From a virus, in the IMG/VR virus record IMGVR_UViG_3300024265_000194, positions 1-25,943 of that record: 25,943 nucleotides of DNA; one strand, 5' to 3'. The notes below the pieces were generated by a model, which did no database searches, was not told the origin of the DNA, and saw nothing but the letters and a program-made list of their open reading frames with translations. Below are positions 5,423 through 22,367 of this stretch, piece after piece (positions within the stretch are counted from its first letter, which is position 1; each line of letters begins with the position of its first letter). The position numbers were made by a program, and so were the translations under genes.

Positions 5423-6621
5423 GTTTATCTACACCTACTACAAAAGAAATAAGCGATAATATTATTGCTCAACTTGAATCAACTTTAAATCAAACCATAC
5501 CCCTGTTACCAAAATCTTTTATGCGGGTTTTGGCTAAGGCTCTAGGGGCTGTCTTTGTCATTTTGTATAAATATGCAGGATTCATTTTTCTACAGATGTT
5601 TGTGCAAGAGGCAAGCAATAGTGAAACTATTATTAATGGCAAAACTTTAATTCCGCTTGTTGAATGGGGGCGGTTAATAGGTGTTGGAGATCCTGCACCG
5701 GCTACCAGTGCAGAGCTCGAAATACAGATAACCGTAAATGTACAATCGGGAACTTTACCGAGTAGTACGCAATTAGTTAGCACTGATAACGGCGTAACAT
5801 ATTTAACTTTAGAATCAATTATATTGGATGCTCCATTGAAAACGGTTAATGTCATGGCTGTATCTGATCAGGCTGGTGGTGGTGGAGTTGGCACTATCGG
5901 AAATCTGGACATTGGTTCAATTTTATCTTTTGTAAATCCTCTTGCTAATATTTCCAGTAATACTCTTGTAACTAATCAAATAGTAACAGGTGCGGAAGCG
6001 GAAAGTACAGAAGCTTACAGGCAGAGGGTAAAAGATCGTTTTCAAAAAAGGCCGCAAGGGGGAGCTTTATCAGATTATGTATTATGGGGTACTGAACCGG
6101 TAGGAATTATTAACATCTATCCATATACAAGTGATAACCCAGGGCAAGTTGATGTCTATGCAGAGGCTACACCAGAAAGTTCTAGTGATCCTGATGGAAT
6201 CCCTACAGGCGCACAACTACAAGCGGTTGCAGATTCTATTAACTTAAATCAGAATGGTTTAGCTACCAGACGCCCGGCTAATGCTTTAGCAAACACATTA
6301 CCAATCACCAGAAGAGATTTTGAAGTCACAATATTTGGATTATCTGTTACTGAAACAGCAGAAGTACAAGAGGATATAACTACTGCAATCGAAGAATATT
6401 TTGCTGAAAGAGAACCGTTTATTGATGGTTTATCTATACCGCCACGAAGAGACAGAATTACTCAAACATCAATTAGTAGTGTAGTGGAAGATGTTGTAGC
6501 GGCGGCTGGTGGAGTATTTAACGGCACAGAATTATTTGATGTTCTAACAAGTTCAACAATTGGTATCTATAGCTTGGGAATCGGCGAGAAAGCTAAAGTA
6601 TCATCTGTTAGCTTTGTTTAA
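5419..6621 (+). CDS. Baseplate J-like protein (Mu gp47 type)
   Basis: The ATG at 5419 overlaps the previous stop (ATGA) and has GGAGA at 5406-5410. The 400-residue product shows the baseplate J pattern: a helical N-terminus ending in a hydrophobic YKYAGFIFLQMFVQEAS segment, a beta-rich middle with a Gly-rich AGGGGVGTIGNL loop, then the conserved EAYRQRVKDRFQKRPQGGALSDY block around residue 200, where the family has 'E...R.R.......P.G.G...Y'. In Mu-like phages this protein forms the wedge arms of the baseplate together with gp46 and gp48, its neighbours here. Length is normal for the family. A TTG 15 bases upstream is a less likely start. Confidence 0.9.
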   Translation: MSLSTPTTKEISDNIIAQLESTLNQTIPLLPKSFMRVLAKALGAVFVILYKYAGFIFLQMFVQEASNSETIINGKTLIPLVEWGRLIGVGDPAPATSAELEIQITVNVQSGTLPSSTQLVSTDNGVTYLTLESIILDAPLKTVNVMAVSDQAGGGGVGTIGNLDIGSILSFVNPLANISSNTLVTNQIVTGAEAESTEAYRQRVKDRFQKRPQGGALSDYVLWGTEPVGIINIYPYTSDNPGQVDVYAEATPESSSDPDGIPTGAQLQAVADSINLNQNGLATRRPANALANTLPITRRDFEVTIFGLSVTETAEVQEDITTAIEEYFAEREPFIDGLSIPPRRDRITQTSISSVVEDVVAAAGGVFNGTELFDVLTSSTIGIYSLGIGEKAKVSSVSFV

Positions 6622-6631
6622 TGGTGGTTTA

Positions 6632-7447
6632 ATGATTTCATTAGACATATTTAAGCATCTATTACCAAACGCTTTAGCCTGGAATATGACCATAAACAAG
6701 CGTTTAAGGGAGTTCTTTGAAGGGTTAGTACCATTTGCCAATGATATTAAAGTCTACATTGATTTGGTATGGTTGGATATTTTCCCTGATACTACTAGAG
6801 AAATAACAGCTTGGGAAAAGCAACTTGGTTTAAGTACAGCAATCATTGATGAGCAAGAGAGAAGGGACAGACTTACAGCAGCCTGGAAAGCTCTTGGTGA
6901 TCAAGATCCAAAATATATACAGGATACTTTACAAAATAATGGTTTTGATGTTTATATTCATGAATGGTGGGAACCAGGAACAGAACCGTTACCAGGTATT
7001 AAACAGGCAGCAACTCCCAGGAATCCATTACAATGGATCAAACAAGACGAAACCGCTGGTGGTACCTTTGTATCTTGCGGCGAAGTATTATCATTATGTG
7101 GTGAACCTACAGCCTTAGCAGGTGATGGCAGCGAACCATTAGGGTATATTTTAGTAAATAAAATAATCAATATGATTCCTGATGTAATTGTCCTTTGTGG
7201 TGAACCAGAAGTATTATGTGGCGAACCGGAAGCATTGTGTGGCGATTTTATAGAGTTCATAGAAGTTAAAAAAGAATATGTAGTCTCAAATGATCCCGCT
7301 GAATGGCCATATTTTCTATATTTTGGCGGGGAAACATTCGGAAATATTGCAACCCTTCCGGCTAATCGCCGTGATGAATTTGAAACCCTTTGTCTAAAAA
7401 TATGTCCTACACAGCAATGGTTAGGAATGTTAATTCAATATAGTTAG
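6632..7447 (+). CDS. YmfQ/DUF2313-like baseplate protein (Mu gp48 type) with Cys-Gly-Glu repeats
   Basis: The start at ATG 6632 gives a 271-residue protein beginning MISLDIFKHLLPNALAW, with the FPDTTREITAWEKQLGL motif near residue 50 and a following RRDRLTAAWKALG that are typical of YmfQ/DUF2313 proteins. These occupy the place of Mu gp48, between baseplate J and the tail fibre, and probably connect fibre to wedge. An insertion in the middle contains five CGE/CGD units: two near residues 148-158 and three closely spaced near 190-205 (LCGEPEVLCGEPEALCGD). Repeated cysteine in a phage structural protein is unusual and may bind metal or form cross-links; that is inference. The C-terminal part (LCLKICPTQQWLGMLIQ) matches the usual family end. 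Confidence 0.82.
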   Translation: MISLDIFKHLLPNALAWNMTINKRLREFFEGLVPFANDIKVYIDLVWLDIFPDTTREITAWEKQLGLSTAIIDEQERRDRLTAAWKALGDQDPKYIQDTLQNNGFDVYIHEWWEPGTEPLPGIKQAATPRNPLQWIKQDETAGGTFVSCGEVLSLCGEPTALAGDGSEPLGYILVNKIINMIPDVIVLCGEPEVLCGEPEALCGDFIEFIEVKKEYVVSNDPAEWPYFLYFGGETFGNIATLPANRRDEFETLCLKICPTQQWLGMLIQYS

Positions 7448-16071: not shown

Positions 16072-16303
16072 ATTCTACATCAAACCGGTTGCGCCGGGAA
16101 AGACTGAATATCATTACAAGTGCAATAGCTGCCAGGCTGTAAATATATTTAATCATCAATTAACTGATTTAGAACTGCACATTTTGCCTACTCACAGACA
16201 GCCAAATTGCAGATATATAACGCTGGCAAAACCTTACACTATCACCATGATGTCATTAGAACTAAATGGTGATTCGGCAATGCGCCGTCTGGAAGTTTGT
16301 TAA
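16058..16303 (+). CDS. Small zinc-finger protein before the methyltransferase gene
   Basis: ATG 16058 is favoured by GGGAAGG directly upstream; an in-frame start 21 bases earlier lacks this. The 81-residue product has KCNSCQ and a later HILPTHRQPNC, which could form one Cys2/His-Cys zinc site. No family was recognised. It ends 4 bases before the ATG of the cytosine methyltransferase gene, so both are probably translated from one message. Confidence 0.65.
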   Translation: MGRNKFYIKPVAPGKTEYHYKCNSCQAVNIFNHQLTDLELHILPTHRQPNCRYITLAKPYTITMMSLELNGDSAMRRLEVC

Positions 16304-16307
16304 GACA

Positions 16308-17453
16308 ATGGAGAAACAATTAAATGGCCTTGATTTATTCGCCGGAATCGGAGGGTTTTCCCTTGGGATCAGGGGGGCACTTGAGCGCGTCGGCATTGAT
16401 TACAGAACCCTTTGCTATGTCGAAAATGATCTCCCATGCCAGCAAATTCTCAAGAGTAGAATGCTCGATGGAGTCTATACCTTCGGGAATATCTACGGAG
16501 ATATCAGAGAATTTGATGGTAAAGAATGGCGGGGTAAAATTGATATCATCACTGGTGGATTCCCCTGCCAGGATATCAGCCTTGCAGGAAATAGAGCCGG
16601 TATTAAAGGCGAAAGAAGCGGACTATTCTTTGAAATATGGAGAGTGGTTCGCGAGGTTAGACCGGCAATCGTTATCATGGAAAATGTACCAGCAATCACT
16701 TCTACCGGCTATGGAGAAATCACCAGAGAAATTTCCGCGAGCGGGTATCATGTTCAATGGAATAATTTATCCGCTGCGGCTGTGGGAGCTCCGCACCAGA
16801 GAAATAGATGGTTTGCTATTGCCTACTCCAACTGTGCATGGAAACAACAATCGGAAGGGATACAGCAAAAAGAGCGGGGACGGTCTATCAACAGCAGTGA
16901 AAAAATTTCCAACTCCGACAGTAGCCGACAGCAGAAGGGGAAAAGTTTTAGGGGCAATGGAAATGTTTCCGACACCCACAGCGCACGAAGCGGGTGCAGG
17001 AGAAGCATTAAAAAATCTGGTAACGAAAGACGGAAGACCGGCAAAATTAGGGGAAAGAGCTTACAACCCGAAAACAGGAAAACACACACAGATTACATTA
17101 AATCGATCCGTGAAAATGTTTCCAACTCCAACGGTATCAGATGCAATAGCGGGGGAGAGGATTCCGCAGCGAAGCAAAAAAAGATCAGCAAATCTGATTC
17201 ACGTATTGAGAAAAATACCCACACCCACAGCCCAGGACGGGAAAAATTCAACTCTACCACCAAGTCAAAGTCAGAGGGATTCAATTCCGGGTTATCTAAT
17301 TCAGCAAGGGCTTTCTGGAGTGCTGAACCCCTTGTGGGTAGAGTGGTTGATGGGTTTTCCGGTAGGAATGACAGAATTAGAGCCCTTGGCAATGCTGTTG
17401 TTCCCCAAGTGGTAGCGGAAGTAGTCAGAAGAATATTGATAGATGGAGAGTAG
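16308..17453 (+). CDS. dcm: DNA cytosine-C5 methyltransferase (Dcm-like)
   Basis: ATG 16308 gives 381 residues with all main C5-methyltransferase motifs. Motif I is DLFAGIGGFSLG (9-20). Motif IV is GGFPCQ with catalytic Cys87. Motif VI is ENV (125-127). Motif VIII is HQRNRWFAIA (163-172). The last motifs are RVVDGF...RIRALGNAVVPQV (345-368). The enzyme transfers a methyl group from S-adenosylmethionine to cytosine in a specific site, probably to protect phage DNA from restriction. The stretch between motifs VIII and IX (about 175-335) is a low-complexity, Ser/Asn/Lys/Arg-rich string with repeats SNSDS, SDTHS, SNSNG and SKSDS, not a normal compact target-recognition domain. It coincides with the conserved repeats of an overlapping second frame, so its sequence may be dictated by that frame. 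Confidence 0.92.
   Translation: MEKQLNGLDLFAGIGGFSLGIRGALERVGIDYRTLCYVENDLPCQQILKSRMLDGVYTFGNIYGDIREFDGKEWRGKIDIITGGFPCQDISLAGNRAGIKGERSGLFFEIWRVVREVRPAIVIMENVPAITSTGYGEITREISASGYHVQWNNLSAAAVGAPHQRNRWFAIAYSNCAWKQQSEGIQQKERGRSINSSEKISNSDSSRQQKGKSFRGNGNVSDTHSARSGCRRSIKKSGNERRKTGKIRGKSLQPENRKTHTDYIKSIRENVSNSNGIRCNSGGEDSAAKQKKISKSDSRIEKNTHTHSPGREKFNSTTKSKSEGFNSGLSNSARAFWSAEPLVGRVVDGFSGRNDRIRALGNAVVPQVVAEVVRRILIDGE
16324..17415 (+). CDS. Second protein encoded in the +1 frame across the methyltransferase gene (PTPT-repeat protein)
   Basis: A 363-codon open frame on the same strand lies almost entirely inside dcm. It has the features of a protein group often seen beside or within phage cytosine methyltransferase genes: SPARISALQEIEPVLK (80-95), LDRQSLSWKMYQQSLL (112-127), FPRAGIMFNG (137-146), five PTPT units (167, 196, 216, 267, 299, each preceded by Leu, Phe or Ile-Pro contexts) and NPLWVEWLMGFPVGMTELEP near the end (335-354). 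GGAG at 16310-16313 is a possible binding site for ATG 16324; ATG 16516, just before the conserved part, is another possible start. Function is unknown; a partner or specificity factor for the methyltransferase is a guess. Random open frames do not normally carry conserved motifs, so I think it is real. Confidence 0.7.
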   Translation: MALIYSPESEGFPLGSGGHLSASALITEPFAMSKMISHASKFSRVECSMESIPSGISTEISENLMVKNGGVKLISSLVDSPARISALQEIEPVLKAKEADYSLKYGEWFARLDRQSLSWKMYQQSLLPAMEKSPEKFPRAGIMFNGIIYPLRLWELRTREIDGLLLPTPTVHGNNNRKGYSKKSGDGLSTAVKKFPTPTVADSRRGKVLGAMEMFPTPTAHEAGAGEALKNLVTKDGRPAKLGERAYNPKTGKHTQITLNRSVKMFPTPTVSDAIAGERIPQRSKKRSANLIHVLRKIPTPTAQDGKNSTLPPSQSQRDSIPGYLIQQGLSGVLNPLWVEWLMGFPVGMTELEPLAMLLFPKW

Positions 17454-19296: not shown

Positions 19297-19902
19297 ATGT
19301 CTAAGACGATAGAAAATTTAGGTAATGGGGTAGGTGATCAAAATTATGGTACACCCTGGTATTTTTATGAGTATTTCAATGAGATATTCGGCTTTACTCG
19401 CGATTGCTGTGCTGATGAAATTAACCACAAGCATGAGAAATACTGGACAAAAAAAGATAACGCTTTAGCGCAATCCTGGAAAGATGAGATTATCTGGTGC
19501 AATCCACCATTTGGGCAAATAGCACCTTTTGCAGAAAAAGCTCTTGAGGAATTACAGAAGCATGGCACCACCACAGTAATGATTACTCCAAACTATTCAG
19601 GAACATTTTATTTCAGGGATTATTTGAACAAAGCTCAAATCTGGTTTATTACCGGTCGTATCAGATTTCAATTACCCGGTAGCTACGAGCTTGCAGGGGA
19701 GAATCCTAACTATATGGTGATTATAATATTTAGTCCTGAATTTTGCCGCATGGGAGATATGAGCGGGGATGTAAAGTTACTGGATTTACAGAAAATCAAA
19801 GATCACAACCAAGGCGAATTATTCAAAAAAGAGGTAATTGCTGAACCGGTCAAAAAGGTAAATAAAACAGAAGCGGCTCTTAAAAGGTTGACTTCTGAAT
19901 AG
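19297..19902 (+). CDS. dam: Phage DNA adenine-N6 methyltransferase (Dam family)
   Basis: This 201-residue protein matches the phage N-6-adenine-methyltransferase family. The N-terminus contains NYGTPWYFYEYFNEIFGFTRDCCAD, the family's 'w.TP...f..l...f.f.lD.aA' block. The catalytic motif IV is NPPFG at 69-73, within WCNPPFGQIAPF. A later IRFQLPG fits the conserved end region. It methylates adenine in DNA with S-adenosylmethionine as donor, which protects phage DNA from restriction or affects replication timing. The last ~40 residues are Lys/Glu-rich. No restriction enzyme gene is adjacent, so it is a solitary enzyme. GAGGTGA precedes the ATG. Confidence 0.88.
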   Translation: MSKTIENLGNGVGDQNYGTPWYFYEYFNEIFGFTRDCCADEINHKHEKYWTKKDNALAQSWKDEIIWCNPPFGQIAPFAEKALEELQKHGTTTVMITPNYSGTFYFRDYLNKAQIWFITGRIRFQLPGSYELAGENPNYMVIIIFSPEFCRMGDMSGDVKLLDLQKIKDHNQGELFKKEVIAEPVKKVNKTEAALKRLTSE

Positions 19903-21256: not shown

Positions 21257-21631
21257 ATGCAGATCAAAATTAGGGTCCAAATCAATGAAAACATCGTAGC
21301 TCTGAAAAAATTACTAGACAAAGTAATTAAACTGGAAATCAAAAGAGACAACATCCCGGAAAAAATCAAAGAAGACATAGTTAGAGAATTAATTCTTCTA
21401 AGTAATGAATTTGATTTAGAGCTTTCTGGAATATTGGCAATTTTCCAGATTGAAACGTTGGAAGATTATCTATTATGTGAGGCTTGCAATTGTGCCAAGT
21501 TGTCAGAGGATATGAAAAGCGATGTTGACGGGGTGCCATTATGTGAATCTTGCTTTAATGAATTGATAGAGCATACGCTTGCGATGGAACCAGGGACAAA
21601 TATTGTTGATGGAGTGATGAATGATGAGTGA
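21257..21631 (+). CDS. Zinc-finger protein at the head of the radical SAM gene set
   Basis: The 124-residue product has a long charged helical N-terminal half (IKIRVQINENIVALKKLLDKVIKLEIKRDNIPEKIKED) and a C-terminal finger: LCEACNCAKLSEDMKSDVDGVPLCESCF, i.e. two Cys pairs about 20 residues apart, similar to DksA/TraR-type or LIM-like fingers. DksA-like phage proteins bind RNA polymerase; here the finger resembles that class but the match is not firm. AGAGG at 21247-21251 precedes the ATG, and the frame overlaps the radical SAM gene by 8-11 bases. Confidence 0.68.
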   Translation: MQIKIRVQINENIVALKKLLDKVIKLEIKRDNIPEKIKEDIVRELILLSNEFDLELSGILAIFQIETLEDYLLCEACNCAKLSEDMKSDVDGVPLCESCFNELIEHTLAMEPGTNIVDGVMNDE

Positions 21632-22367
21632 AAAGGGCTATCGTATGATCTATAAACCTAAAGGCATGGCTTTGGAATATGCACCACTGGCACTGAATCC
21701 CTATATAGGTTGCAATCATGGCTGTACATATTGCTACGGACCGGCTGCAATGCGTAGACCGGATTTTCATGATGTTATCCGACCACGAAAAGATTTTTTA
21801 AAAAAGCTTGCTTTAGATATCAGAGATATGAAAGCGGAAAATGACAAGAGACAAGTTCTATTATCCTTTGCTACAGATCCCTATAACGAGCTAGAACCGA
21901 AATTGAAGTTGACCCGCAATGCCTTGATGATGCTGAGTAAGGCAGAGATACCTTTTACTGTGTTGACTAAATCTGATTTTGCGGAAGATGATTTTGATTT
22001 GTATAGTGCAACCAGGGATAGCTTTGGTGTATCACTAACTACAATGAATGTTGCAAAAGCGGATAGATGGGAACCAGACGCGGCTAAACCCTGGAAAAGA
22101 TCAGAACAGCTTGAACGTGCAAAACGGGATGGTATTAGTACTTGGGTATCATTAGAACCGGTTATGGATTCAGTAGAGGCTATGGCAGTTATCTATAACG
22201 TCCATGAATTTACAGACGTTATCAAAATTGGCAAGCTCAATCATCAACAGCCAGAAAAGCCAATCGACTGGCAGAAATTTGCATTCGATGCTGTAGAACT
22301 ATGCGAGAAGTTAGGACAGAAATACATCTTGAAAGACAGCCTTGCAAAATATTTAGGGGCGGAGTGA
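21621..22367 (+). CDS. Radical SAM protein, SplB / COG1533 (Rv2578c-like) type
   Basis: The 248-residue protein has the radical SAM cluster motif Cys31-x3-Cys35-x2-Cys38 in NPYIGCNHGCTYCYGPAA, which binds a [4Fe-4S] cluster and S-adenosylmethionine. The surroundings (LSFATDPYNELEPKLKLTRNAL and PFTVLTKSDF) match the SplB-like COG1533 group rather than generic radical SAM proteins. Spore photoproduct lyase of this superfamily repairs thymine photoproducts, but COG1533 relatives have other, mostly unknown roles. The second half has WVSLEPVMDS and VIKIGKLNH. A phage gene of this kind suggests DNA repair or DNA base modification. Two ATG codons in tandem (21621, 21624) are both possible starts. 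The stop overlaps the nuclease start. Confidence 0.85.
   Translation: MMSEKGYRMIYKPKGMALEYAPLALNPYIGCNHGCTYCYGPAAMRRPDFHDVIRPRKDFLKKLALDIRDMKAENDKRQVLLSFATDPYNELEPKLKLTRNALMMLSKAEIPFTVLTKSDFAEDDFDLYSATRDSFGVSLTTMNVAKADRWEPDAAKPWKRSEQLERAKRDGISTWVSLEPVMDSVEAMAVIYNVHEFTDVIKIGKLNHQQPEKPIDWQKFAFDAVELCEKLGQKYILKDSLAKYLGAE

Follow-up and report, generated by a model that had tools for sequence, protein, structure and literature searches.

A phage cytosine-C5 DNA methyltransferase probably made as two subunits from overlapping reading frames, with a putative recognition half in the second frame

The window analyzed here, a viral record of 25,943 bases that includes phage tail genes, very probably encodes a two-subunit cytosine-C5 DNA methyltransferase made from overlapping reading frames of the same strand, with the DNA-recognition half of the enzyme in the second frame (frame B). 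Judged by sequence, both frames are constrained, motif IX is assigned to frame B, relatives carry motifs IX and X in one frame or the other, or in a single chain, and the cassettes that precede motif IX have been shuffled; from there, we infer the assembly of the subunits, the recognition role of the cassettes and the biological purpose. In the mechanism that we propose, frame A would supply a catalytic domain (motifs I to VIII), a mostly disordered linker and the helix of motif X. Frame B, with a start of its own a few codons downstream of that of frame A, would supply an N-terminal domain, perhaps a docking surface, followed by PTPT-headed recognition cassettes and motif IX. The two chains could then assemble into an active enzyme in the manner of M.EcoHK31I, with chain B choosing the target. 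The phage would probably use the enzyme to escape host restriction by methylating one or several short sequences in its own DNA, a purpose that we attribute to it from what phage methyltransferases do.

The locus and its two reading frames

Frame A matches PF00145 at 3e-44 and carries motifs I, IV (PCQ), VI (ENV), VIII and X in the order seen in a C5 catalytic domain; an upstream ATG at 16266 is a possible alternative start. A sequence-only reading of this DNA had credited frame A with every C5 motif, which is not so: motif IX is absent from A and present in B, and a recognition domain and motif IX are therefore not found together in chain A. In an AlphaFold model of frame A, residues 1 to 180 mostly have pLDDT values of 85 to 97, and a Foldseek search with this model returned M.HhaI/M.HaeIII at an E value of about 3e-15. 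The linker over the cassettes has pLDDT values below 60 throughout, mostly below 50 from residue 211 (211 to 335), and the model holds no folded candidate recognition region in A. The prediction for frame A alone is thus an M.HhaI-like catalytic domain with disorder where the recognition region would lie.

Table 1. Coordinates of the methyltransferase locus and of other features noted in the window.
Feature	Position	Strand	Description
Frame A	16308..17453	+	381 aa; probable large (catalytic) subunit of cytosine-C5 DNA methyltransferase; motifs I-VIII and X
Frame B (+1 frame)	16324..17415	+	Probable small subunit; putative recognition region and motif IX; 363 open codons
Frame-B start region	16310..16326	+	GGAG (16310-16313), 10-nt spacer, in-frame TAA, ATG
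Motif I (DLFAGIGGFSLG)	16332..16367	+	Frame A
Motif IV (GGFPCQDIS)	16554..16580	+	Frame A; catalytic Cys
Frame-B N-domain, residues 103-165	16630..16818	+	Overlaps frame-A motifs VI-VIII; kept in 67 loci; constraint beyond shadow
Motif VI (ENV)	16680..16694	+	Frame A
FPRAGIMFNG	16732..16761		Frame B
Motif VIII (GAPHQRNRWF)	16785..16814	+	Frame A
Five PTPT-headed cassettes	16822..17313	+	Frame B; putative target-recognition modules; borders 16822-16908, 16909-16968, 16969-17121, 17122-17217, 17218-17313
Frame-A linker over cassettes	16848..17312	+	Ser/Asn-rich, predicted mostly disordered, mostly shadow of B
Motif IX (LNPLWVEWLMGFPVGMTE)	17323..17376	+	Frame B; profile alignment to canonical motif IX
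WVEWLMGFPVG	17335..17367		Frame B; over frame-A VGRVVDGFSGRN
Motif X (RALGNAVVP)	17379..17405	+	Frame A
Tail-region protein	6560..7447		CGEPxxLCGEP-like motif, repeated
Phage Dam-type second methyltransferase	19297..19902		PF05869, 5.5e-25; 1.8 kb downstream
Radical SAM protein	21621..22367		PF04055, 7e-10; in the phage genome

The long opening of frame B inside frame A, described in the sequence-only reading, was borne out with its coordinates, as were the placement of FPRAGIMFNG and WVEWLMGFPVG (Table 1) and the five PTPT units (nt 16822, 16909, 16969, 17122 and 17218), which lie over frame-A YSNC, SNSDS, SDTHS, SNSNG and THTHS, in that order. The N-domain upstream of these units has the consensus SW.T.Q..L...PRSGMM.NG..Y.L across 67 loci. 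Frame B matches phrog_1008 (PHROG 1008), named "DNA methyltransferase," at 2.5e-27, and has no match in Pfam. Profile comparison matched its WVEWLMGFP to the motif IX of canonical enzymes over a short stretch of 18 columns (E value, 5e-5; probability, 68%), and tails that include X as well as IX align colinearly with the canonical IX-X segment (E value, 6e-5). Searches of Pfam and NCBIfam with the B proteins that have motif X gave no C5-methyltransferase match, and motif IX was therefore placed by profile alignment. The frame-B model is poor (pLDDT 58) and matched no solved structure in a fold search, and the frame-B profile found none among solved structures at E values up to 10; with matches neither in Pfam nor to solved structures, the putative recognition role of B rests on position and modularity.

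The frame-B ATG abuts an in-frame TAA (TAA-ATG, 16321 to 16326), and its anti-Shine-Dalgarno energy of -6.4 kcal/mol compares with -3.4 kcal/mol for the frame-A ATG. Among 99 loci with an internal start, a B-frame ATG preceded by a good Shine-Dalgarno sequence is present in 77%, compared to 40% of synonymous shuffles (z = -9.6, inflated in size, as are all z-scores here, by treating related sequences as independent); in another group of 76 loci, the B start lies 1 or 4 nt from the A start. We take the ATG at 16324 to be the start in use.

Constraint on both frames and their layout in relatives

When the A protein was held fixed and its synonymous codons were shuffled, frame B averaged 8.4 stops and was open in none of 5,000 shuffles; with B fixed and shuffled likewise, frame A averaged 13.5 stops and was never open. 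All 80 viral relatives found with frame B share the same +1 overlap, with 0 stops against about 498 expected. As these had been picked by B, a second set of 80 was picked by frame-A alignment as an unbiased check (used in place of the frame-A protein, which as a direct query of viral contigs found no relative), and 76 of these viral loci, chosen without regard to frame B, place motif IX in +1 and motif X in A. Among 80 loci from cellular genomes that had been selected with frame B, 75 were arranged in the same way. In 14 canonical single-chain C5 enzymes (thirteen from the same cellular genomes, plus E. coli Dcm), stops in the +1 frame were near expectation, and the longest open runs spanned 35 to 161 codons.

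To map constraint along the locus, we set the similarity seen in each frame against the similarity that the other frame imposes on it, using 33 loci thinned to <50% identity and the third frame as a control. Frame B stands above the shadow of A from about A residue 80 on, most strongly at residues 121 to 180, 201 to 280 and 321 to 360, with no excess in A residues 1 to 60. Frame A stands above the shadow of B over residues 1 to 180 and 321 to 360, and just slightly in 181 to 320. The excess in the control frame is smaller than in the two coding frames and is expected from leakage; since z-scores are inflated by relatedness, the evidence lies in the contrast between frames. The map therefore indicates that A codes for motifs I to VIII and B for its N-domain and the PTPT region, with both constrained across motif IX of B, under which a conserved VGRVxDG lies in A before motif X follows in that frame.

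The earlier claim that both products are selected holds in that both frames are constrained beyond the shadow of the other, but not for B before about residue 60, where no constraint was detected (and which therefore does not fix the exact start), and over A residues 181 to 320 it is A that is mostly a shadow of B, not the reverse. The sequence-only reading had named stops or drift in B, or a B that is merely a shadow of A, as findings that would count against it; both were tested, and neither occurred.

Other layouts of the same parts occur among relatives. In four loci (L024, L174, L175 and L081, the last being Streptomyces phage Samora), 6 to 14 stops close frame A beyond motif VIII, and PTP cassettes, IX and X all remain in frame B. 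Arthrobacter phage MidnightRain has IX and X in A and the PTP region in B. In mycobacteriophage VRedHorse gp68, prophiT49-1 gp22 and Geralt gp64, motifs I to VIII, the PTP cassettes, IX and X all share one frame, and the B N-domain persists in +1. These varied layouts suggest that the boundary between frames slides between lineages and that B is the C-terminal half of the enzyme. The guess that B might be a specificity or partner subunit of the same enzyme agrees with a B protein that has motif IX, and in relatives also X, and agrees equally with the mycobacteriophage chains in which PTP cassettes and IX-X are joined to I-VIII.

Some loci depart from an intact pair. In an E. coli PCP07014 prophage (L279, 1501 to 2278), stops within a few bases of each other close both frames, so that both halves are broken together. 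Another locus (L194, 2897 to 3863) has one in-frame stop between motifs VIII and X of frame A and an intact B. In a third (L109, 2420 to 3411), the frame-A open reading frame ends in WVEWLMGWPIGWTDL and motif X is shifted to the third frame, with an indel, real or a sequencing error, inside motif IX.

The cassette row

Between the B N-domain and motif IX lies a row of cassettes with a median of 35 residues each, PTP-type head first, and a mean of 3.0 per locus across 221 loci; a relative in an E. coli PT62 prophage (L280) has just one. Single-linkage clustering with the heads included merged unrelated cassettes through the shared PTPT head; rerun with the heads removed, it placed 630 cassettes in 300 families. 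Three of the five cassettes in the window have family members at other loci. When loci with catalytic domains <45% identical are compared, 267 cassette pairs are at least 60% identical, and 185 of these occupy different ordinal positions in the row. The cassettes that flank shared pairs were related in 4 cases and unrelated in 313. The cassettes have been shuffled between unrelated loci and are probably target-recognition modules.

The multispecific phage C5 methyltransferases SPR, SPbeta, phi3T and H2 have several short recognition modules arranged one after another between motifs VIII and IX. The putative recognition row in the window resembles these modules; SPR, SPbeta, phi3T and H2, however, each consist of a single chain read in one frame and have had their specificities measured, whereas the present row lies in the overlapping frame B. 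Works on these multispecific enzymes are cited in PMC8936443. Three loci (L002, L016 and L057) have in frame B an unusually long unit of >130 residues (...TTIEHWFRR...PSIEHWQAIKPHL...) that looks helix-turn-helix-like and, in L016, lies downstream of motif IX.

Alternative readings and known systems

Could frame B be a mere shadow, open and conserved because A codons force it? Some B motifs are partly forced, such as SPARIS under FPCQDIS, and B overlaps A in all loci examined. Such a reading is nevertheless almost certainly wrong given the outcome of the synonymous shuffles, the similarity of B beyond the shadow of A, the excess of Shine-Dalgarno sequences and the loci in which the frame of A itself holds the cassettes, IX and X; it is refuted by the four loci in which A is closed over the B segment and B persists. 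A programmed +1 ribosomal frameshift from A into B after motif VIII would instead yield a single fusion, joining motifs I to VIII to the cassettes and IX in canonical order, and single-chain versions do exist in mycobacteriophages. A fusion product would, however, need neither the B N-domain, which lies upstream of the junction and is constrained beyond shadow, nor the B-frame ATGs with Shine-Dalgarno sequences, which are enriched, and motif X downstream stays conserved in frame A. As the N-domain and starts of B are conserved, we consider a frameshift fusion very unlikely.

HNH endonucleases encoded out of frame within phage methylase genes are known, and the hidden HNH element of ShiLan is a second protein in another frame of such a gene (PMC11855218). 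Whereas the ShiLan element is a homing endonuclease inserted in some phages, frame B appears to be half of an enzyme: it has no match to an HNH or other nuclease family, occurs in nearly all loci of the clade, unlike an insertion, ends in motif IX and has its parts in one chain with the catalytic domain in some relatives. A reading in which B is translated but has nothing to do with the methyltransferase, for instance as a hidden homing endonuclease, is therefore scarcely credible. Within a two-subunit enzyme, the cassettes might still be spacers or protein-interaction modules rather than recognition modules, as the fold search with B gave no match and the predicted recognition domain of M.EcoHK31I was placed in the large subunit (PMC3404938). 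We regard this as unlikely: frame A has no folded candidate recognition region, cassettes in single-chain relatives sit between VIII and IX, the site of the target-recognition domain in C5 enzymes, and they are shuffled like specificity modules.

If frame B is the recognition half of a two-subunit methyltransferase, frame A alone may look intact yet be inactive once cloned, and the cassettes, as recognition modules, would offer a large natural set of swappable specificities. Hundreds of phages and bacteria carry this hidden second gene. Because gene callers tend to retain a single frame, many phage and prophage methyltransferases have likely had their recognition half missed or annotated as a separate or hypothetical gene. 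We lean, by a small measure, toward regarding these loci as a widespread phage and bacterial class of C5 enzymes in which a shuffling, multispecific cassette row overlaps the catalytic gene, specificities are gained by recombination with both frames kept open, and the boundary slides so that IX and X may lie in either frame. The locus would also be a rare case of a same-strand overlap longer than 1 kb in which selection acts, in both frames, on two domains of a single enzyme, and it would allow direct tests of how overlapping genes evolve.

The principle of two nested subunits is already known from M.EcoHK31I, whose large gene likewise contains the small one in a different frame, and which reportedly needs two proteins. 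Split C5 enzymes include M.EcoHK31I and M.AquI; the former consists of two polypeptides, a large one with motifs I to VIII and X and a small one with IX (PMC3404938). By this description, the window has the same division of motifs, but unlike in the M.EcoHK31I account, the VIII-IX region here is conserved, modular and in the small chain. A search for a relative of EcoHK31I through plasmids and E. coli genomes returned other plasmids and prophage copies only. M.AquI is split after motif VIII and has a C-terminal small subunit (PMC3404938), a layout close to that of L024, L174, L175 and L081, with IX and X in B, and of many actinophage pairs; the window differs in having motif X in frame A rather than in the small chain.

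The literature searched on nested C5 methyltransferases contained no account of this PTPT frame-B family, nor did it describe PHROG 1008 or the internal genes as the recognition half of the enzyme. The spread of the family, the two-frame constraint map, the sliding and frame-swapping architectures and the shuffled array of PTPT cassettes appear to be new. Some frame-B genes are already listed by annotators: PHROG 1008 members and annotated internal genes are frame-B proteins, as is gp56 of Paenibacillus phage Shelly, annotated as "g55 internal gene," and the paired "DNA methylase" open reading frames of actinophages include frame-B proteins.
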